From a virus: a stretch of 25,934 nucleotides of DNA. The DNA lies in IMG/VR virus record IMGVR_UViG_3300025057_000499, positions 1-25,934 of that record. One strand, 5' to 3'. The notes under the pieces are model-generated. The model did no database searches. It saw nothing but the letters and a program-made list of their open reading frames with translations, and was not told where the DNA came from. This document shows positions 564 to 25,796 of the stretch, piece by piece; positions within the stretch are counted from its first letter, which is position 1; every line of letters starts with the position of its first letter. A program made the position numbers and the translations under genes.

Positions 564-1505
564 TTAAAGTTGCTCGTTTATCAATGTAGATTTTTCACGC
601 ATAGTCTTAATTGCTTTGTGCTCAAGTGTACGTACACGATCACGGCTCATATTTAGCACTTGGCCAATAGCAGTCATAGACATTGGCTCAAGTACATCTT
701 CACCAACTGCATATCGCATACTAATTACTGCAGCCTGCATATCAGGTAATTCTTTGATAAGTTTTCGGATGTCATCTTTTATCATTTGTGCTTCCAGTAA
801 TTTATCTGGTAATTGACTTTCGTCTTCTAGTAAATCAATCAATGCTGTATCTTTGTTTTCACCTATTTTAATCTCAAGTGAAGTAGGTTGTCGTGCTTTG
901 CACATTAAATCTTTAATCTCTTCTACACTTAAGTCTAAGTAATCAGATAATTGAAAAACAGTCGGCATCTCACCATTAATTTGACTGAGTTCTCGTTGTG
1001 CTTTTTTGAGCTTGTTCAGATTTTCGGTTACGTGAATAGGTAACCTGATTGCACGTGATTTCTCAGCAATAGCTCGTGTGATGCCCTGTCTTATCCACCA
1101 GTACGCATAGGTACTGAATTTATAGCCACGTCCTGGGTCAAACTTTTCCACACCACGTACTAAGCCGATAGTGCCTTCTTGAATAATGTCAAGAAGTTCC
1201 ATATTCCGCTTTGTGTATTTTTTAGCAACACTAACGACAAGCCTAAGGTTTGCTTGAACCATCTTGTCTTTTGCACGCTCTCCTTCACGTATCTCACGTT
1301 TTAGCTGCTTTAGTGAAATGTCTAATACTTTGGCTAAATCTTCTTTAGTTGAAGTATTCAGTTCTTCCTCTAAATCTCTGATGTACATTAAGCGTTGTAC
1401 TTGACGACCAAGCAGAATTTCTTCATCGTGCTCCAGAAGTGGAATTCTTCCGATATCACGCAAATATGCTCGGACAGAATCTCCAGTGTGTTTTGTTTGT
1501 GACAT
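564..1505 (-). CDS. RNA polymerase sigma-70 factor, RpoD/SigA-like (cyanobacterial group 1/2 style)
   Basis: Directs host RNA polymerase to promoters. The 313 residues show region 1.2 (about 9-38, DSVRAYLRDIGRIPLL), region 2 (82-152, with NLRLVVSVAKKY, DIIQEG, KFDPGRGYKFSTYAYWWIRQ), region 3 (about 155-230) and region 4 (about 245-305). The -10 contact residues equivalent to E. coli Q437 and T440 are kept (Q140, T143 in WWIRQGITR). The -35 helix reads SRDRVRTLEHKA where housekeeping factors read TRERIRQIEAKA, so E585 becomes D and Q589 becomes T, while R584 is kept as R288. There is no long region 1.1, which fits group 2 factors. It lies inside the late block, downstream of small structural-type genes, so it may control late or neighbouring phage promoters. 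Identity as a sigma factor is secure; the promoter preference is inferred. Confidence 0.95.
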   Translation of the reverse strand: MSQTKHTGDSVRAYLRDIGRIPLLEHDEEILLGRQVQRLMYIRDLEEELNTSTKEDLAKVLDISLKQLKREIREGERAKDKMVQANLRLVVSVAKKYTKRNMELLDIIQEGTIGLVRGVEKFDPGRGYKFSTYAYWWIRQGITRAIAEKSRAIRLPIHVTENLNKLKKAQRELSQINGEMPTVFQLSDYLDLSVEEIKDLMCKARQPTSLEIKIGENKDTALIDLLEDESQLPDKLLEAQMIKDDIRKLIKELPDMQAAVISMRYAVGEDVLEPMSMTAIGQVLNMSRDRVRTLEHKAIKTMREKSTLINEQL

Positions 1506-5376: not shown

Positions 5377-6549
5377 CTAACTAAATCTTAGACCAGCCAT
5401 TCTGCCTCTAGGAGTAAATGCTCCGTATCTGGCTTCTTTTTGACGATCTTCATCTAGTGCAGAACCGAATCTTCCGTTAACAATATTTCTAGAAAAGTTA
5501 TTGCCAATACTTGCGCCTGAACCAAATGTAGAACCAGAAATATTTACGTTTGTATCGCCACTATTGCCTACTACATTTTTTATGTCTCCAACTTTGATAT
5601 TGTCATCACCTAAAATATTGTCGTCACCTCTGACTAGGTTTCCGCTACCTGCACCACTATTTCCGCTACGGTTTCCGCTGTTAGTCACTTCAGCAGCACC
5701 AGACAACAGATCTAATGCTTCACTAAGATTTTCCATTGCAGGAGAATCTTTCATTCGTTCTTCTTTTGATCTTGCTGGTCTGAATGAAAAATCTACTTTA
5801 TTTTTACCTCTATCATTTCCGATTTGTGCGCCATCACCAAATGTAGTATCTTCTATATTTAGCAGGGTATCGCCTCTGTTACCGACTCTGTTTGTAATAT
5901 CACCGATGACTGTATTGCCTTTGCCTAAAATATTTCCATCACCTTCAACGACATTACCGCTACCGTTACCTGAATTGAAAGATCCATTAAAACTATCCCT
6001 GATTACAGGACCTTCAGCACCAGGCCTTGGCCTCACTGGCCTCACTGGTCTCACTGGTCTTGATGGCCTTTCGGGCCTTGTCGGTCTTGTTATTGGTCGT
6101 TCGTCTCTTGGCGGACGTACCGGTCTTGTTGGACGTGGGGGCCTTGTTGGGACGTTAGGGATTGTTGGCTCATCTTCGTCATCAACTGGTGTTGTCGGAC
6201 CCATAGCGTCGCCAGCTTTTCTTAACTTTCCATATAGATAATCTCTATATGCAACTTGACCACTACCGTATTTAGCTCTAACAGCTTCTTGATCTGCTTT
6301 CCAGGCAGCAAGAGTTTCATCGTCAAAGTTTTTATAATCAACCCAATTGTCGGTGCCTCCATACTTTGCTAGAAGGCTCCTTTGGGCATTAACAGCTTCT
6401 CTTTTAAAGTCATTATAGATATTGGCGTACTCACCCAAACCCTTCATTGAGTCAGTATAGTCTTTGTAAAAATCTTTAGGACCTAAATCACTATACTTTT
6501 CACGGTATAGTTCTTTAACTTCATCAGATTGTTGACCCCAGGTTTTCAT
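5377..6549 (-). CDS. Low-complexity virion-region protein with Pro-Arg linker and two Gly/Asn modules
   Basis: Not recognised as a family. The start at 6549 has a clear AAGGAG ribosome-binding site about 7 bases upstream. Residues 1-118 are charged and probably helical. Residues 127-182 form a Pro/Arg linker of repeated RPT/RPV units. Two copies of a roughly 65-residue module follow (about 190-252 and 290-359), with the pattern SGN..SGN, then D.NI.G..N, GDI.N..GN.GD and TFG.GA..GN. The same module occurs once in the neighbouring 649-aa protein. The C terminus ends in MAGLRFS. The regular Gly/Asn/Asp spacing suggests a short beta-solenoid. Position between terminase and portal points to a virion or packaging role, not shown directly. 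Confidence 0.75.
   Translation of the reverse strand: MKTWGQQSDEVKELYREKYSDLGPKDFYKDYTDSMKGLGEYANIYNDFKREAVNAQRSLLAKYGGTDNWVDYKNFDDETLAAWKADQEAVRAKYGSGQVAYRDYLYGKLRKAGDAMGPTTPVDDEDEPTIPNVPTRPPRPTRPVRPPRDERPITRPTRPERPSRPVRPVRPVRPRPGAEGPVIRDSFNGSFNSGNGSGNVVEGDGNILGKGNTVIGDITNRVGNRGDTLLNIEDTTFGDGAQIGNDRGKNKVDFSFRPARSKEERMKDSPAMENLSEALDLLSGAAEVTNSGNRSGNSGAGSGNLVRGDDNILGDDNIKVGDIKNVVGNSGDTNVNISGSTFGSGASIGNNFSRNIVNGRFGSALDEDRQKEARYGAFTPRGRMAGLRFS
5473..5679 (-). repeat. Gly/Asn module copy 2 of the 390-aa protein
   Basis: Residues 290-358. Key residues are NSGNRSGNSGAGSGN at the start, DDNILG, GDIKNVVGNSGD and STFGSGASIGNN at the end. It is closest to the copy in the 649-aa gene, with which it shares SGNSGAGSGN. 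Confidence 0.8.
5794..5982 (-). repeat. Gly/Asn module copy 1 of the 390-aa protein
   Basis: Residues 190-252. It keeps the pattern GNGSGNVVEGDGNILG, GDITNRVGNRGD and TTFGDGAQIGND. It is more diverged than the other two copies. Confidence 0.75.
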
Positions 6550-6560
6550 TCATCTACTCC

Positions 6561-8510
6561 TTAAAAGTTTGCTTGATTAGCAATTTGTTTTGTTTCATCT
6601 TTTGGTTTATTAGGTGAACCTGGGCTTGTAAAGTCAGGTGCTTGATAATTCCCATCAAACATATCGCCTAAGTAGTAGCCTTGCTGTGCTTGAGACATAT
6701 TCTGATAGTTTGCTGTGCTCATTCCGGCCATATTGTATGCATTCTGTGCAATCCCATTTGGCATCATATTGGCTTGTCCTGCCATTTGCATTGCACCAGC
6801 TGCGCTTGCATATCCATTCATTTGAGACTGAGATTGTGCAAACTGATTATTATTTAAAGCTTTGTAAGCTTCCATACCTTGCATATTTTCAAGAGCTGAA
6901 GATTGTCCAGGTCCGCTACCAAAGTTTTGAGCATTTATATTTACACCATAGTTGTTACCAAAGTTAGCACCAGGACCGAATGTACTGTTGTTGATGTCAA
7001 AGTTAAAGTCACCAGTATTGCCAAAACTATTATTTATATCTCCGTAACTCATATTGTTGTTACCAAAGATATTATTGTCGCTGTTTGTCAGTTGGTTACC
7101 TGAACCAGCACCACTATTGCCAGATTGGTTACCACTATTTGTCATAGTCGTATTATTGCTATTATTTGTACTATAATCTCTGTTGTCAGTTTGACTCAGA
7201 TTAGAATTCATTGAATTTGACATTGTATTGTCAATATTATTACTGTTGTTCATCGTAGAAGTCATATTATTACTATTAGAAGTAGTAACATTAGCACTTG
7301 TATTTCCGCTATTAGCGTAGGAAGTGTTATAGCTATCAGATGTATTTCCAGAATTAATCATATTGTTGCTGTCATTAGTACTTGCATCAGTGTTATAGCT
7401 ATCTGAAGTATTTGTGTTATAGCTATCATTAGTGCTCATATCAGTACTACTATTATCTGTATAGTATGAAGATGTATTCATACTGTCATTTATACTGTTG
7501 TCTGAATTGTCGTACTTGTTGTAGCTGTCAGTAGTAGTATTAGTCGTAGTATTCTGTGTATTTGTATTGAAGCTATCATCAATAGAACGCTGACTATTGT
7601 CGTTATAGCTATCTGTAACCCTATTATCACTTTGATCGTTATAGCTATTATTAGCATTCATACTATCGTTTATGCTTCTATTACTATTATCGTTATAGCT
7701 ATCATTAGTGCTTCTATTAGAGTTATCGTTTAAGCTATCAATAATTCTGTTGTCTGAATTGTCATTCAAGCTGTCGTTTATATTAGTGCTGTTATTACTA
7801 TTATCATTAGCACTATTGTTTAGGCTTGTATTGTAACTATCATTAACACTGTTATTGCTATTGTCATTAGCACTATTGTTTAGTGTTGTGTTTGTATTCA
7901 TACTATCGTTAATACTATTATTTGTATTCATACTGTCATTGATACTATTATTGCTGTTATCAGTGACTGTTGTATTGCCGCTGTTATTAATACTATTATT
8001 GTTATTGCTGTTATTGACGCTGTTATTGTTCATACTATCTTTTATAGACATTCTATATTGTGCTCTTTCTTTAGCTGCTTTTCTGACTTCTTCATCCTTA
8101 GATTTTCTATAAATTCTACCCCTTTTTACATTATTTTTCTTAAGAAATTGTTGTTGGTGGTATCCAACTTTATCGTCTCTTTTTGCCATATCTCGCGCAA
8201 TTTCATCAGCAGAGAATCCCATTCTCTGCAATTCACGCATATCTGCGACATTATACGTTTTACCAAAATCATAGTCGGCAATATTAGTTACCTGTTGACC
8301 TTTGATTACATCTTGACCTTTTTTCTGTACATTCTGACCAGTTTTTAAATATCGATCAGCTTGGTTTACTATCTGATTTGCTTTACGCTGATTAATAAGT
8401 GCTTTACCAGATATCCCCCCTTCAGAGTTTGCCATTCTATCAAACTTCTCTAATCGCTTTAAAGCCCGAGCTTTTTTCTTTTGGGCGTTCTTTTCACTTG
8501 TAAACTGCAT
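6561..8510 (-). CDS. Asn/Ser/Asp-rich repeat protein with one Gly/Asn module (649 aa)
   Basis: Not recognised. Residues 1-158 are basic and helical (KNAQKKKARALKRLEKF near the start; a GFSADEIARDMAKRDDKVGY segment at 98-117). Residues 159-457 are almost entirely Asn, Ser, Thr and Asp, arranged in degenerate units of about 12 residues such as NDNSNRSINDSM and NDNSNRSTNDSY. Residues 458-530 hold the Gly/Asn module (SGNQSGNSGAGSGN, GDINNSFGNTGD, STFGPGANFGNN). The C-terminal 120 residues are Gln/Met/Ala-rich. It lies directly after the large terminase, with only a 5-base gap. A fibrous or phase-separating virion component is a guess; ordered solenoid and disordered states both fit. No signal peptide is seen. 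Confidence 0.75.
   Translation of the reverse strand: MQFTSEKNAQKKKARALKRLEKFDRMANSEGGISGKALINQRKANQIVNQADRYLKTGQNVQKKGQDVIKGQQVTNIADYDFGKTYNVADMRELQRMGFSADEIARDMAKRDDKVGYHQQQFLKKNNVKRGRIYRKSKDEEVRKAAKERAQYRMSIKDSMNNNSVNNSNNNNSINNSGNTTVTDNSNNSINDSMNTNNSINDSMNTNTTLNNSANDNSNNSVNDSYNTSLNNSANDNSNNSTNINDSLNDNSDNRIIDSLNDNSNRSTNDSYNDNSNRSINDSMNANNSYNDQSDNRVTDSYNDNSQRSIDDSFNTNTQNTTTNTTTDSYNKYDNSDNSINDSMNTSSYYTDNSSTDMSTNDSYNTNTSDSYNTDASTNDSNNMINSGNTSDSYNTSYANSGNTSANVTTSNSNNMTSTMNNSNNIDNTMSNSMNSNLSQTDNRDYSTNNSNNTTMTNSGNQSGNSGAGSGNQLTNSDNNIFGNNNMSYGDINNSFGNTGDFNFDINNSTFGPGANFGNNYGVNINAQNFGSGPGQSSALENMQGMEAYKALNNNQFAQSQSQMNGYASAAGAMQMAGQANMMPNGIAQNAYNMAGMSTANYQNMSQAQQGYYLGDMFDGNYQAPDFTSPGSPNKPKDETKQIANQANF
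6921..7139 (-). repeat. Gly/Asn module in the 649-aa protein
   Basis: Residues 458-530. This is the third copy of the module found twice in the next gene downstream. The shared SGNQSGNSGAGSGN start and STFGPGANFGNN end are visible both in protein and partly in DNA. Confidence 0.8.
7140..8036 (-). repeat. Asn-rich repeat tract, about 12-residue units
   Basis: About 299 codons (residues 159-457) dominated by Asn, Ser, Thr and Asp. Repeats are degenerate, with unit lengths of mostly 11-12 and sometimes 18 residues. The DNA is about one third G+C (hand count of 7921-7980). Confidence 0.8.
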
Positions 8511-22050: not shown

Positions 22051-23286
22051 TTAATACATAAGTCTCATCATCTCTTCACGCTCTTTGAATTCATCTTCAG
22101 TCGGTAACCAACTCTTATTAGGCTCACCTGTTGGCTTTTGAGTGAAATAATCAGTGTCTGAATCAGCTAAACCAAATTGTGCAGGGTTGCCGGTAATAGC
22201 ACTTGCGTTTGGATTAAATGTTTCAGCTCTGTTGCTATCAGACGGTACATATAATGTACCTCCCATATTACTTTCAGCCATATCCACATAACTCTGTCTT
22301 GTAGCAGGTAAAGGGTTCCCAGAATCAGGACTTTGCTCTTGTGCTGCTGTTTTTACGACATATTTGAATTTATCTGCAAATTCTTGACTTGCTACTTGAT
22401 TGCGGTCGGCTTTTAAAGCCGCAGCACCTTCATCAGAAAGAGCTATCCAATTTCCATCTGAACCTTTTGCGTAAACCTTACCGTTTTGCTTAATTGTGTT
22501 TTGAGCAGCGTCAGCATTACGTAAAGCCAGCATACTGTCGTCTGGACCGTCTAAAAACGCTCTGCTACGTCGGTCAAGTCCTACATCAGCAGTTTCATAG
22601 ATATCATCAGGTCGTTCGTCATCTTTTACATATTTACTGGGATCAAACCGCAGTGAACTCATTTGATCGCCTACATCTGCTGCAGAACTTTCTCCACTTT
22701 GCGCACCTTGACTACCGGCAAAACCACCGGCCATTTCACCTCGAATAATCTTGTCAAAATCTGGATTATCGACTTTTACGTAATTACCTTCGTTTTGACC
22801 ATTTGTAATTCGTACAATATTGCCGCTACTAGTATCTGGTGCATTACCAGCGGTATTAGGCAGGGAATTTGACTGCATTCCCATCCGTCCTTGGCCAAAA
22901 TTGAAGCTAATTCCTCTACCTTCAAGTACTTTTTGAAAATCGTCGAAGTTTGCGGGTGTAGGGCTCAATTGTGTTCCAGAACTATTACCACGCCTGCTGT
23001 CACGCCCTGTCAGAGTTTCCTCTGAATTTCTAGCGGGTTGATAGTAGCTTCTATCAGCACTACCAGCATTTCCTGAGCCTGGAGTTACTTTTCCGTATGT
23101 AATCCCAGTTTCTGAAGATGTATTTGAAGAACTAGTACTTCCGCCGACTGGAACACTACGTCTACCAGCATTTGCGCGAGATCCTGCACCCCTTTTCATA
23201 GGTGCTTTACCTAAGCCAAATGATAATCCGTATTTTTCTCTTTCACGCCGTTCTTCCGGCGTCATAAATCTATTACGTGAGCTCAT
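22051..23286 (-). CDS. Hypothetical disordered Ser/Gly/Asp-rich protein (411 aa)
   Basis: Not recognised. The N terminus is basic (SSRNRFMTPEERREREKYG). A Ser/Gly/Arg-rich stretch runs to about 110. Short ordered-looking islands follow (DDFQKVLEGRGISFNFG; GNIVRITNGQNEGNYVKVDN; NTIKQNGKVYAKGSDGNWIALSDEG), the last resembling a small beta-hairpin substrate- or partner-binding piece. The C terminus is acidic (PTEDEFKEREEMMRLMY). No membrane segment, signal peptide or enzyme motif is visible. It starts 47 bases after the 83-aa gene and ends 38 bases before the 671-aa gene. Confidence 0.75.
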   Translation of the reverse strand: MSSRNRFMTPEERREREKYGLSFGLGKAPMKRGAGSRANAGRRSVPVGGSTSSSNTSSETGITYGKVTPGSGNAGSADRSYYQPARNSEETLTGRDSRRGNSSGTQLSPTPANFDDFQKVLEGRGISFNFGQGRMGMQSNSLPNTAGNAPDTSSGNIVRITNGQNEGNYVKVDNPDFDKIIRGEMAGGFAGSQGAQSGESSAADVGDQMSSLRFDPSKYVKDDERPDDIYETADVGLDRRSRAFLDGPDDSMLALRNADAAQNTIKQNGKVYAKGSDGNWIALSDEGAAALKADRNQVASQEFADKFKYVVKTAAQEQSPDSGNPLPATRQSYVDMAESNMGGTLYVPSDSNRAETFNPNASAITGNPAQFGLADSDTDYFTQKPTGEPNKSWLPTEDEFKEREEMMRLMY

Positions 23287-23333
23287 TTGGCTAATTCACT
23301 AATATATCTCTCAATATTCTACAAATATCAGCC

Positions 23334-23585
23334 TTATCCTTTAGATTTACGCATTGCAGCCTCTTTTGCGATAGCCATATTCGCTGAATTGCCCGAATTT
23401 CCGCCAGATTGGTCCATAATTGGCGCATTATTTGGAATTCCCATGGAATATGGGTTTCCAGGCAGGCATTTTTTTACATTTGGGTTGTAAAAATGGCCAG
23501 GTTTGCAGATTTTTTGGCTAATTGCCTCTAATTGGTCCCTTTCAGCACGGACAGAGCTGTATAAAAGTGGATTATCTTTGTTCAT
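23334..23585 (-). CDS. Small protein with a CxPG...CLPG motif (83 aa)
   Basis: Not recognised. I prefer the ATG at 23585; the longer frame begins with TTG at 23618 and adds only an AT-rich coded, unlikely leader. Residues 1-25 are a charged helix (SSVRAERDQLEAISQ). Then KICKPGHFYNPNVKKCLPG gives two cysteines in a compact loop, as in small disulfide or metal-bound knuckles. A Gly/Asn/Ser-rich part and a basic tail follow. It is the first gene of the leftward block, about 112 bases downstream of the candidate leftward promoter start. Confidence 0.7.
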   Translation of the reverse strand: MNKDNPLLYSSVRAERDQLEAISQKICKPGHFYNPNVKKCLPGNPYSMGIPNNAPIMDQSGGNSGNSANMAIAKEAAMRKSKG

Positions 23586-23623
23586 TTTTATCAAAATCTT
23601 TATTTCAATTGTAATCAACTACA

Positions 23624-23655
23624 AAACCACGCTTACCACACTACTTTCTATAAAC
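23624..23655 (+). promoter_or_regulatory. Rightward promoter-like element, arm 1 of inverted pair
   Basis: AAACCACG, 17 bases, then TATAAAC. Matches arm 2 on the opposite strand at both ends, while the spacer between them differs. That is the pattern expected of a -35/-10 promoter with a non-canonical -35. A transcript would start near 23662 and run toward the small-gene array. Confidence 0.5.
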
Positions 23656-23703
23656 TGCAAAATAAATGAACTAATAGAGAGGGGACAGGGAATACAAATA
23701 TAG

Positions 23704-23736
23704 GTTTATAGAAAACACGGTGGTTTACCGTGGTTT
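23704..23736 (-). promoter_or_regulatory. Leftward promoter-like element, arm 2 of inverted pair
   Basis: Read on the minus strand: AAACCACG, 18 bases, then TATAAAC. The eleven bases TTTCTATAAAC are identical to arm 1. A start near 23697 would give a leader of about 112 bases to the 83-aa gene and the whole late block. Confidence 0.5.
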
Positions 23737-23862
23737 GTGTGGTTTTTCTGCCCGATACCAAACAGGTACCCTGACGCCCATTTTTAACGCCTTTTCTGCG
23801 GCGTCTAGGACAGCCTGTAGCAATAGTGAAAGTTCTTAGACCTTATGACTACTATTGTCCAT

Positions 23863-23884
23863 AAAAAAGGCCCTATAGAGGGTC
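23863..23884 (-). terminator. Terminator-like hairpin for leftward transcripts
   Basis: On the minus strand a 6-bp stem (GACCCT/AGGGCC with one G-T pair, loop CTAT) is followed by TTTTTT. It would stop leftward read-through from the right before the late-block promoter region; no minus gene lies to its right in this window. Confidence 0.4.
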
Positions 23885-24067
23885 AAAATTGCTGCAAAAT
23901 TTTTGACACGTCTAATATACTACTATCCCGTGAGCCTGGCCGAACAAAAAAATATAGTGTGTACAACAGTTGTTCACTCGTTAACACTCGTTCACTTAAG
24001 TTTAATTGTTCGCCTTAACTCAAGCTACGCTTTCGTGTGGCTCACGTGATTCACCCGAGTAACTTCA

Positions 24068-24128
24068 GTTCACACTAATGAGAATGATTATCATTTGCAT
24101 TTAATTGTCTCTCATTTCGTGTGTGAAC
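24068..24128. repeat. Large imperfect inverted repeat in the array leader
   Basis: GTTCACAC, one base, AATGAGA at 24068-24083 pairs with TCTCATT, four bases, GTGTGAAC at 24110-24128: 15 paired bases each side around a 26-base centre. It lies 25 bases before the first ATG of the array. Confidence 0.65.
24080..24098. promoter_or_regulatory. Fur-box-like palindrome
   Basis: GAGAATGATTATCATTTGC matches 15 of 19 positions of the classical Fur consensus and has a perfect AATGAT-T-ATCATT dyad. It lies in the loop of the larger inverted repeat. Whether a host Fur-type protein binds is unknown. Confidence 0.3.
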
Positions 24129-24153
24129 TTCAGTTTCGTGTGCGCGTTTACAA

Positions 24154-24273
24154 ATGCTATCACCATTGTTTCAAGCTCAAGTTTTTCGCTTGTATAACGG
24201 TTGTTACATTTGTGTATATTCTTTAATGTTATTTGTTTTACAGTTAATATTTCTTCATTTGAACAGCATTTAA
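24154..24273 (+). CDS. Small hydrophobic protein, first of the array (39 aa)
   Basis: Not recognised. It reads MLSPLFQAQVFRLYNG and then a strongly hydrophobic run (about residues 17-36, CYICVYSLMLFVLQLIFLHL), a likely membrane helix, ending NSI. Support for being real comes from the junction: its TAA stop is the TAA of the TAACAGCC that also begins the first TAAC hairpin, the same arrangement as after the 60-aa gene at 25446. It has no Shine-Dalgarno sequence. A short frame could arise by chance, so certainty is moderate. Confidence 0.45.
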   Translation: MLSPLFQAQVFRLYNGCYICVYSLMLFVLQLIFLHLNSI

Positions 24274-24278
24274 CAGCC

Positions 24279-24294
24279 GCGAATTAACATTCGC
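24279..24294 (+). repeat. TAAC-loop hairpin 1
   Basis: Stem GCGAAT/ATTCGC, loop TAAC, preceded by TAACAGCC and followed by TTTTAGTCTTTGTG. The next ATG is 35 bases after the stem. Confidence 0.75.
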
Positions 24295-24329
24295 TTTTAG
24301 TCTTTGTGTAAATCAAGTTTTAAATCATA

Positions 24330-24392
24330 ATGTTTCTTCCAATTGCTTTCGCTCTTGTTCTTGCAGTTACAGCTGTGAGAATTTATTGCTGA
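24330..24392 (+). CDS. Candidate 20-aa membrane peptide
   Basis: Not recognised. The peptide MFLPIAFALVLAVTAVRIYC is a single hydrophobic helix ending in Arg, Tyr and Cys. Its start lies 35 bases after hairpin 1, the same distance as for well-supported genes of the array, which is the main reason to list it. The stop is followed by 69 bases before hairpin 2, longer than at other junctions, so a different or longer gene may be present here. Confidence 0.4.
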   Translation: MFLPIAFALVLAVTAVRIYC

Positions 24393-24461
24393 TATTTCTT
24401 CGCTTAATTGCTTGCACTTCTGTGTTTCTTTTAAGCGTTGCTTGTAACAGCCAACAACCTT

Positions 24462-24477
24462 GCGTTCTAACGAACGC
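24462..24477 (+). repeat. TAAC-loop hairpin 2
   Basis: Stem GCGTTC/GAACGC, loop TAAC, preceded at 24445 by TAACAGCC and followed by TGTAAGTCTTTTTGTTC. The next ATG is 38 bases after the stem. Confidence 0.75.
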
Positions 24478-24515
24478 TGTAAGTCTTTTTGTTCTATATC
24501 TAAATCTCATTTATT

Positions 24516-24671
24516 ATGAAAACTTTCAAGGTTACCCTTTCAAAGATGGATAATCCCGATAAACTCAAGTTCATCTTGGTTGAAGACTGCATTGATATGG
24601 ATGAATGTATTGAGCACGTTCATTCCACTGAGAAAGGATTTGTCATCAATGCCATCAAAGAGATGTCTTGA
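24516..24671 (+). CDS. Small acidic hypothetical protein (51 aa)
   Basis: Not recognised. It starts MKTFKVTLSKMDNPDK and continues KFILVEDCIDMDECIEHV, a probable beta strand, then an acidic helix, then GFVINAIKEMS: a small alpha/beta fold with two cysteines. There is no membrane segment. It lies between hairpins 2 and 3, and its stop is 8 bases before hairpin 3. It lacks a clear Shine-Dalgarno sequence. Early phage proteins of this size often bind a host enzyme, but nothing specific is visible. Confidence 0.7.
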   Translation: MKTFKVTLSKMDNPDKLKFILVEDCIDMDECIEHVHSTEKGFVINAIKEMS

Positions 24672-24679
24672 ACACACTT

Positions 24680-24697
24680 AGCCGCTTAACAGCGGCT
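24680..24697 (+). repeat. TAAC-loop hairpin 3
   Basis: Stem AGCCGCT/AGCGGCT, loop TAAC, then TTTACTTTTAGTGTTC. The next ATG is 32 bases after the stem. Confidence 0.85.
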
Positions 24698-24729
24698 TTT
24701 ACTTTTAGTGTTCTTTTTAGGTAATACCT

Positions 24730-24951
24730 ATGTTTTATTTAGTTCAAGCTATGGAAGATTACACGAGTGCTGTACTTCCCAGCTATACCAAATTATTCAG
24801 CAGCAAGGCAGCAGCTACTGCTTATGCCTCGCTAATCGTCGCCAACAAGTGTGGCTTTGATTTTGCTGAGATTACTGAGATTGAGGTTGAGAGTGATCCA
24901 CTCTCTGACCTCAGTGTTGAGGAGTATGAGCTTGCAACTACTCCTGTCTGA
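24730..24951 (+). CDS. Small hypothetical protein (73 aa)
   Basis: Not recognised. It begins MFYLVQAMEDYTSAVLP, with a strand-like start, then SYTKLFSSKAAATAYASLIVAN, an amphipathic helix, then FAEITEIEVESDPLSDLSVEEYEL, an acidic strand and tail. It looks like a compact soluble alpha/beta protein. The ATG follows AGGT at a distance of about 5 bases and a small TAGGT/ACCTA palindrome. It is bounded by hairpins 3 and 4, and its stop is 5 bases before hairpin 4. A host-takeover role is inferred only from size and position. Confidence 0.75.
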   Translation: MFYLVQAMEDYTSAVLPSYTKLFSSKAAATAYASLIVANKCGFDFAEITEIEVESDPLSDLSVEEYELATTPV

Positions 24952-24956
24952 ACCTT

Positions 24957-24974
24957 AGCCGCATAACTGCGGCT
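24957..24974 (+). repeat. TAAC-loop hairpin 4
   Basis: Stem AGCCGCA/TGCGGCT, loop TAAC, then TTAATTCTTAGTGTTC. The next ATG is 32 bases after the stem. The innermost pair is A-T, whereas in copy 3 it is T-A. Confidence 0.85.
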
Positions 24975-25006
24975 TTAATTCTTAGTGTTCAATAACTTTC
25001 TCACTA

Positions 25007-25204
25007 ATGCGTAACTTCTTCGCTTCTGCTCCTGCTGTCTTCATCAGCACCACGCTTCTAGCTCTTGCAACCATTGGCACTGGTGCAGTTGTTAACAGTC
25101 TTGAGACTGCTACTGCTAACCAGTGTGCCAATCACTTGTGGCCTGCTGATGCTCACGATGTCCACATTGAGTGGTGTCTTGATAACGGCTTTGAAGTCCG
25201 TTGA
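25007..25204 (+). CDS. Small exported or membrane-anchored protein (65 aa)
   Basis: Not recognised. The N terminus MRNFFASAPAVFISTT and the following LLALATIGTGAVV (about residues 5-29) look like a signal peptide or signal anchor with one Arg before the hydrophobic core. The remaining 36 residues (ETATANQCANHLWPADAHD, then EWCLDNGFEV) are polar and hold two cysteines 17 residues apart that could form a disulfide outside the membrane. The stop is TGA at 25202, 12 bases before hairpin 5. A role at the cell envelope early in infection is a guess. Confidence 0.72.
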   Translation: MRNFFASAPAVFISTTLLALATIGTGAVVNSLETATANQCANHLWPADAHDVHIEWCLDNGFEVR

Positions 25205-25216
25205 TAACAGCCTATG

Positions 25217-25232
25217 GCCGGCTAACGCCGGC
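25217..25232 (+). repeat. TAAC-loop hairpin 5
   Basis: Stem GCCGGC/GCCGGC, loop TAAC, preceded by TAACAGCCTATG and followed by TTTAAGTCCTGGCGTCC. The next ATG is 33 bases after the stem. Confidence 0.85.
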
Positions 25233-25265
25233 TTTAAGTCCTGGCGTCCTTTATATCTAACAACT

Positions 25266-25448
25266 ATGTTTACTATCCAGTATTGGAACCCCGTTGCTGC
25301 CGAATGGCGTGGCACCGGTTCAGGTTCAATCAGTGACTACGACGCTGCTCGTCAGCGTATGCGAGCTCTCGCTGAGCAATGCAATCATTGCTGCGACTTT
25401 CGCATTGAACCTACACCACCACGTGGTGGTTGTGTCGTAGGTGGCTAA
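25266..25448 (+). CDS. Small Cys-containing hypothetical protein (60 aa)
   Basis: Not recognised. It starts MFTIQYWNPVAAEWRGTG, likely a beta hairpin, followed by a helix (SDYDAARQRMRALAEQ), then CNHCCDFRIEPTPPRGGCVVGG. The CxxCC plus a later Cys could bind a metal or form disulfides. The stop TAA belongs to the TAACAGCC preceding hairpin 6. The gene is more G+C-rich (about 55% in 25321-25380 by hand count) than the late block. A longer frame starting at 25065 overlaps the previous gene and is not preferred. Confidence 0.72.
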   Translation: MFTIQYWNPVAAEWRGTGSGSISDYDAARQRMRALAEQCNHCCDFRIEPTPPRGGCVVGG

Positions 25449-25456
25449 CAGCCTTT

Positions 25457-25472
25457 GCCGCATAACTGCGGC
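25457..25472 (+). repeat. TAAC-loop hairpin 6
   Basis: Stem GCCGCA/TGCGGC, loop TAAC, preceded by TAACAGCCTTT and followed by TTTAACTCTCATTGTCC. The next ATG is 33 bases after the stem. Confidence 0.85.
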
Positions 25473-25505
25473 TTTAACTCTCATTGTCCTTTGAACAATT
25501 CAATT

Positions 25506-25796
25506 ATGAACATTATCGCTTCCTTGCGTAAGAACACGAAACAGGGTGTCTCCACCTGGACTTTCGTCGTAGATAACGAGATGAAAGTGTGCTACGCAGT
25601 TGGCGGGCTTGACCTAAAGGTCATCCCTGCTACTGACCGTAATCACCTTCGTGCTATTTATCAGAAGTTTATGACTTACGGCTACACACGTAAGTTGAGT
25701 GCTGCTCCTAAGAAGGAGCAATACATCTCGGACCCTTGGTCCTCAGAGCTCCCTGCTGCAATGCAGCAAGAGCTTGAAGCCTTGTCTGTAGCTTGA
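25506..25796 (+). CDS. Small hypothetical protein (96 aa)
   Basis: Not recognised. I chose ATG 25506, because the longer frame from 25455 would run through hairpin 6, and the 33-base hairpin-to-ATG distance matches the other junctions. The N-terminal half looks like an antiparallel sheet (NIIASLRKNTK, STWTFVVDNEMKVCYAVGG, LDLKVIPATD), followed by a helix (RNHLRAIYQKFMTYGY) and a Pro/Glu/Ser-containing tail with a final helix (PAAMQQELEAL). It is soluble, with one Cys. The function is unknown. Confidence 0.75.
   Translation: MNIIASLRKNTKQGVSTWTFVVDNEMKVCYAVGGLDLKVIPATDRNHLRAIYQKFMTYGYTRKLSAAPKKEQYISDPWSSELPAAMQQELEALSVA

Follow-up and report, generated by a model that had tools for sequence, protein, structure and literature searches.

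Face-to-face promoter-like arms recurring at the heads of gene blocks in marine relatives of cyanophage S-EIV1

In an uncultured virus genome, the boundary between the late genes and an array of small genes carries two promoter-like arms that point at each other, which raises the question of what such an arrangement is for and whether it is peculiar to this locus. The stretch of DNA analysed here, the window, is the 25,934-base virus record IMGVR_UViG_3300025057_000499 (positions 1 to 25,934). It covers part of the genome of a marine phage related to cyanophage S-EIV1: its terminase (TerL) has 55 % identity to that of Synechococcus phage S-EIV1 (KJ410740), and up to 94 % identity to those of uncultured viral contigs. 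No phage record in the INPHARED collection contains a sigma factor with at least 60 % identity, so that this marine branch seems to be without an isolate in that collection. The locus is probably one instance of an obligate face-to-face promoter/operator module, usually present three times per genome, that heads the main gene blocks and would serve as a switch or insulator.

The paired element in the window

The first-pass annotation had described two inverted copies of AAACCACG-N17/18-TATAAAC situated 48 bp apart, and both occur as it described them. The search of the remaining sequence that it had suggested finds the exact bipartite motif only at these two places in the 25,934-base record, with 0 matches in a backwards-read control of the window; the looser pattern ACCACG-N12-24-TATAAA has two matches in the window versus 0.03 expected, a number reached by 0 of 100 shuffles. 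The element, its parts and the genes that matter for its interpretation are as follows.

23617..23746, unstranded: whole paired element, at site A (boundary of the late genes and the small-gene array); arm-HMM interval, summed score 53.3 bits
23624..23655, + strand: left arm, AAACCACG-N17-TATAAAC, directed toward the small-gene array; 29.5 bits
23626-23631 and 23649-23655, + strand: left-arm box ACCACG at the -35 position and TATAAAC, spacer 17, from the sequence
23618..23639, + strand: left-arm direct repeats, three ACYAC units (starts 23618, 23626 and 23635), read from the sequence
23656..23703, unstranded: A+T-rich centre that separates the two arms and belongs to the island conserved in the site alignments
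23704..23736, - strand: right arm, AAACCACG-N18-TATAAAC, directed toward the late structural genes; 23.8 bits
23734-23729 and 23710-23704, - strand: right-arm box ACCACG at the -35 position and TATAAAC, spacer 18, from the sequence
23720..23743, - strand: right-arm direct repeats, three ACCAC units (GTGGT at 23720, 23730 and 23739 on the + strand), read from the sequence
23334..23585, - strand: first late-block ORF after the right arm, 83 aa; weak homologues adjoin the same element in the relatives G002, G003 and G004
24516..25796, + strand: start of the small-gene array, downstream of the left arm, from ORFs; the first ORF region is S-CAM7-like DNA
564..1505, - strand: sigma-70 family factor (regions 1.2, 2, 3 and 4 by Pfam), last gene of the late block

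The ACCACG hexamer had been taken for a -35-like box. It is present and has a spacing of 17 or 18, but this description is too narrow, because it misses the TTTC before both TATAAAC boxes and the repeats: each arm contains three direct ACYAC repeats at ca. 9-10 bp, and with such an array the so-called -35 box is one of its units. If both arms are promoters, the A+T-rich centre would be transcribed from both of them; the proposed overlap of 35 bases between the 5′ ends of the late and array transcripts is a prediction only.

Between the element and the first array gene there are ca. 770 bases (23740-24510) nearly free of ORFs and containing inverted GTGTGAACTTCAGTT repeats. The first array ORF region (24516-24659) shows 74 % DNA identity to the T4-like Synechococcus phage S-CAM7, and the small array genes are followed by hairpins of the type TAACAGCCGC...GCGGCTTT. 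Elsewhere in the window (5377-8510), late proteins contain long N/S-rich and GNSGDTNVNI-type repeats. A protein search with a short ORF neighbouring the element returned nothing useful.

Recurrence, pairing and location in related phages

Thirteen relatives (G001-G013) were read entire, save the last 569 bases of G006, and a fuzzy search plus inspection of these and of the window gave 23 paired elements, including the window's. An arm profile (HMM) trained on these 23 elements was then applied to 94 other records, which total 1.40 Mb and include nine whole contigs of 32-106 kb; the records, which comprise loci and genomes of related contigs, overlap in part. The result is a collection of 61 non-overlapping paired elements (window's included), 53 of them distinct, in 32 records, and genomes of the marine group usually hold three copies. 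The element is absent from 77 of 109 records, mostly short terminase-centred loci and with G011, G012 and S-EIV1 among them; G011 (33 kb) and G012 (32 kb), both of which carry the sigma gene, appear to end before site A.

Facing pairs hold 114 of the 115 strong arms, defined by scores of at least 12 bits; dinucleotide shuffles scored with the arm profile reached a maximum of 10.8 bits. The training elements contain 45 arms of at least 12 bits, plus one in a near-identical second copy at the other end of G004, and each arm of at least 9 bits in the 94 other records faces a partner, that of L285 excepted. This last is the sole strong arm without an HMM partner, and a degraded facing partner is visible by eye, for which reason the idea of solitary promoters was dropped. 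Neighbouring strong arms up to 200 bp apart were face-to-face in 53 cases, and divergent or tandem in none; a looser threshold also returned 5 divergent and 12 tandem combinations, none of them with both arms at 12 bits or more and non-overlapping. Likewise, loci fetched by a one-arm pattern had a facing partner in 8 of 8 cases (three of these contigs were already among those examined). The pair originally noticed in the window is real, and what had escaped attention is that pairing is near-obligate and that the element recurs at three places.

The consensus of 116 arms, derived from an earlier set of 60 "distinct" pairs that includes a few overlapping sub-hits and that was also used for the box counts and the pairing test, is AACtacAAAACTACGCTAACTACgCTAgTTtTCTATATAC. 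An arm consists of a run of RCYAC direct repeats, about three units with one at the -35 position, followed by a TATAWA -10. In the relatives, repeat units are spaced mostly 8-10 bp, with a mode of 9. Of 120 arms examined, 93 have their best RCYRCR box 17 or 18 bases from the -10 and eight have no box; among the 112 that pass the -35 criterion, the -10 hexamer reads TATATA in 62 arms and TATAAA in 25. The most conserved columns are T (98 %) and A (99 %) of the -10 and two C residues (98 % and 99 %) at the -35 position, whose unit is more conserved than the neighbouring repeat units. Outer distances between the -10 boxes were measured for 56 elements: 53 fall within 52-68, which corresponds to 40-56 bp between the -10 hexamers, and the remaining three (7, 39 and 41) are outliers.

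An exact one-arm pattern compared with genomes of 84,980 species matched a single contig, from this phage group; since this sole genome match is misbinned, a host origin of the element was discarded. Contig L425 (NHEP01000030.1), filed as "bacterium TMED88", is a phage of this group and contains a facing pair at 6955-7087. The exact one-arm pattern picks out this phage group and so offers a practical signature for it; a broad pattern scan of viral contigs yielded for the most part chance matches. We recognised no publication as describing this element, and an earlier description may exist.

Marker genes assign 56 of the 61 elements to three syntenic places: 14 to site A, marked by the late block, 21 to site B, marked by DUF932, and 21 to site C, marked by HNH, in many cases with a tyrosine recombinase before it. 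One of the five elements outside this assignment is the end copy of G004. The marker genes at the three sites read away from the element, and the genomes compared share one site order. In G004, site A opens both the late block, which extends to C, and the array block, which extends to B; site B in turn opens a metabolism/replication block and site C an HNH/NblA block, the elements standing at the heads of the main gene blocks. As a consequence of this layout, one arm at B and C points back, antisense, into the final part of the block that terminates there. Both arms are nevertheless conserved at these sites, in an island with mostly 0.5-0.8 pairwise identity versus mostly 0.3-0.5 in the flanks; mean arm scores are 24.9 bits versus 21.0 for the back-pointing arm at site B, and 24.7 versus 20.2 at site C. 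Arm orientation and conservation were evaluated in 52 of the 61 elements, leaving aside L268, L271, the second copies in G004 and G024 and the unassigned ones. A plain promoter that points antisense, as at B and C, would be hard to account for, and because of these arms the first-pass account of late versus array transcripts, which fits site A, covers only one of the three sites.

The marine phages also contain psbA, NblA-like, high-light-inducible protein, transaldolase and ribonucleotide reductase genes (G004 23280-24755, G002 69614-70702, and others). A homologue of translation initiation factor IF-1 (PF01176) is present in all six near-complete marine phages compared (L213:3547-3774, - strand, and relatives).

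Possible readers of the arms and rival explanations

Measured against sigma-70-type promoters, the arms have a -10 near TATAAT and a box about 17 bp from it, but RCYACR occupies the place of a TTGACA-like -35, and a plain sigma-70 consensus scan calls no promoter at the element. The promoter reading of the first pass is supported in part, in that the spacing, the TATAWA and the block-head location recur. Three phased repeats per arm are also more than a sigma factor needs. Moreover, ordinary promoters should occur as solitary copies before other genes, and none was found, which counts against a promoter model.

The window's sigma factor is a candidate reader. The nearest PDB chains are SigA, and in the alignment its region 4.2 helix, MSRDRVRT, is identical in 14 of 14 phages and contrasts with VTRERIRQ of cyanobacterial-type SigA, bearing out the changes that had been noticed at two positions, which we take to be -35 contacts. 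A sigma-70 family protein is encoded in 14 of 14 first-set marine records and in 8 of 8 second-set records tested (22/22), being broken by stops and frame changes in G030, possibly through a sequencing fault, and split in two pieces in G024. It was found in 0 of 9 freshwater-type records, this term being a group label for S-EIV1 and its eight nearest long contigs and not a record-by-record habitat. The arm profile detected nothing in S-EIV1 and five freshwater relatives (best score 8.0 bits versus the shuffle maximum of 10.8), and the strict arm pattern had no match in eight freshwater-type records; a de novo paired-array finder recovered the true element in G006 only, of five marine test sequences, and is uninformative on freshwater phages. 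The co-occurrence of sigma factor and element is suggestive of the phage sigma as the reader, and clade membership would explain it equally well; its weight is small because the marine records look like one clade. Counting against a role of sigma, its gene is the last one of the same-strand late block in the window, remote from the element, and sits downstream of the promoter that it would supposedly read.

Other proteins could recognise the repeats. In an operator cluster, a host or phage repressor or activator would bind the phased direct repeats, the element being mainly a protein-binding or bridging site and its TATA boxes ordinary -10s read by the host. The architecture resembles that of promoters in which an activator replaces the -35, and three phased repeats per arm with a 9-bp mode agree with it, as does the drift of the repeat letters among phages (C/T and A/G changes) with the array itself persisting, while the sigma recognition helix is invariant. 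This drift had been entertained as proof against a sigma reading, and was abandoned as such given the near invariance of the two C residues at the -35 position. The stronger conservation of that unit speaks against an operator cluster too, as does the failure of the Pfam and PHROGs scans (one PHROGs batch covering the first 25 of 61 families) to reveal a candidate regulator, be it a repressor, excisionase or response regulator, among the matches listed; we regard this explanation as a minor possibility. A replication-origin module is improbable. On this view, the facing arms would give rise to short divergent transcripts, or act as inverted iterons for an initiator, and the A+T-rich centre would open to give bidirectional starts, three per genome. 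Paired arrays around a conserved A+T-rich centre and the lack of solitary arms would suit an origin, the group has a helicase/primase homologue, S-EIV1 has an annotated family A DNA polymerase, and the major gene blocks of G004 run outward from site A. Nevertheless, GC and AT skew track the gene strand and do not single out the sites, no initiator was found in the scans, three origins per 70-80 kb would be unusual, and the -35/-10 spacing and TATAWA are left unexplained.

Two further readings, an integrase site and an RNA hairpin, are disfavoured. It is very unlikely that the element is an att-like site for the tyrosine recombinase encoded beside site C. A PF00589-type recombinase gene occurs within 2.6 kb of 14 of the 21 site-C elements, often ending right there, and the att site of phage 186 has direct repeats with a helical-turn spacing (PMC7498355); however, no such gene was detected near the other seven site-C elements or near those of sites A and B, G005 has the gene with no element beside it, and the element of G001 is nearly the same as that of G002 in spite of a different recombinase-like protein. 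With the site order constant in the genomes compared, no rearrangement is seen either, and an attachment site was rejected because the element persists without a recombinase or with another one. At site C of G001 (35547-37130; L205), the usual recombinase of 259-268 aa is replaced by a tyrosine-recombinase-like protein of 527 aa, recognised by its motif by eye. Pairing of the inverted arms with each other, as an RNA hairpin or a DNA cruciform, is hardly credible. On either strand, the fold of the window element is stronger than those of shuffles (z of -4.1 and -4.2), but this strong fold did not withstand a comparison of own and foreign partners: pairing with the own partner averages -28.8 kcal/mol versus -31.4 with arms of other elements in the same record (45 elements, 15 records), and the own partner was best in 9 of 45 cases, with 15 expected by chance. 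Rfam contains no match for the element.

We thus return to the facing promoter/operator module. From the sequence, pairing, recurrence, location and both-arm conservation of the element we infer that its arms start transcription and have a switching or insulating role. Each arm would be a sigma-70-type promoter with a TATAWA -10 and with the consensus -35 replaced by an RCYACR repeat unit. One arm would drive the block leading away from the module (array, DUF932 or HNH block), and the opposed arm would serve the late genes at site A and read antisense into the end of the preceding block at B and C. The two start regions would overlap, so that the arms should interfere with or exclude each other, making the module a direction switch and/or an insulator against incoming transcription; arms would be selected by the phage sigma and/or a repeat-binding protein. 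A more ambitious version, which we consider doubtful, assigns the function to the pair and not to the single promoter. Each of the three pairs in a genome would be a compact module from which transcription starts in both directions, acting simultaneously as switch, insulator and possibly transcription-primed replication start; its reader would be a phage sigma dedicated to it, with an altered -35 helix, and sigma and module would have spread jointly through the marine branch. Throughout this set of uncultured marine cyanophages the facing arrangement is found where gene blocks begin, and at two of its three places an arm that points antisense is conserved. Should the arms prove active, the arrangement could be used to ask whether transcriptional interference is built into a whole genome as a rule of its layout, and whether a phage sigma and its own set of promoters are inherited together.

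Comparison with known systems

The S-EIV1 lineage is of the same phage kind, and the HNH gene and others are common to S-EIV1 and the marine group; it differs in that S-EIV1 and its eight freshwater relatives are without the sigma gene and in that arms are undetectable in S-EIV1 and five relatives. A divergent intergenic region of S-EIV1 (44139-44244; L003:4140-4245) contains one-sided direct repeats of ca. 10 bp on the minus strand (CCACTTAACACACTTAATACCACTTC), with no visible facing partner and in a genome without this sigma, and this run is possibly a distant counterpart of the element.

Sigma-70-type promoters of phage late and middle genes, read with a phage sigma, are a known kind. The arms resemble them in their 17-18 bp spacing, their TATAWA -10 and the presence of a phage sigma, and depart from them in having RCYACR instead of TTGACA, inside a repeat array, and no clear solitary copy in the data searched.

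Facing phage promoters are also known as lysis-lysogeny switches. According to PMC7498355, the lytic promoter of P2-like phages faces the lysogenic one at a distance of 40-60 bp, the Cox/Apl direct repeats are spaced by one helix turn, and the att site of phage 186 likewise has direct repeats with a helical-turn spacing. The likeness comprises two facing promoters (putative in our case), separated by 40-60 bp there and, in the present elements, by 40-56 bp between the -10 hexamers, direct repeats with a period of about one helical turn, and a factor of 186 that also acts at att beside int, one of the sites described here often adjoining a recombinase gene. The module differs in its usual three copies per genome, in the position of its repeats, which lie upstream of each -10 (about -45 to -20; mode 9 bp) where the Cox/Apl repeats of the P2/186 type lie between or over the promoters at 10-11 bp, in the single motif shared by both arms, and in blocks that are late, array and metabolic and not lytic versus lysogenic. 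Gene context and scanned proteins show no pair of one lytic and one lysogenic operon with an immunity repressor, and no immunity repressor, Cox-like or RDF gene is among the matches listed in the Pfam and PHROGs scans. Since the geometry is the same but copy number, repeat position and gene context are different, we do not file the element as a member of the P2/186 switches; judging from its sequence, it is best read as an element that would work like a facing promoter pair, in a variant arrangement of the P2/186 type.
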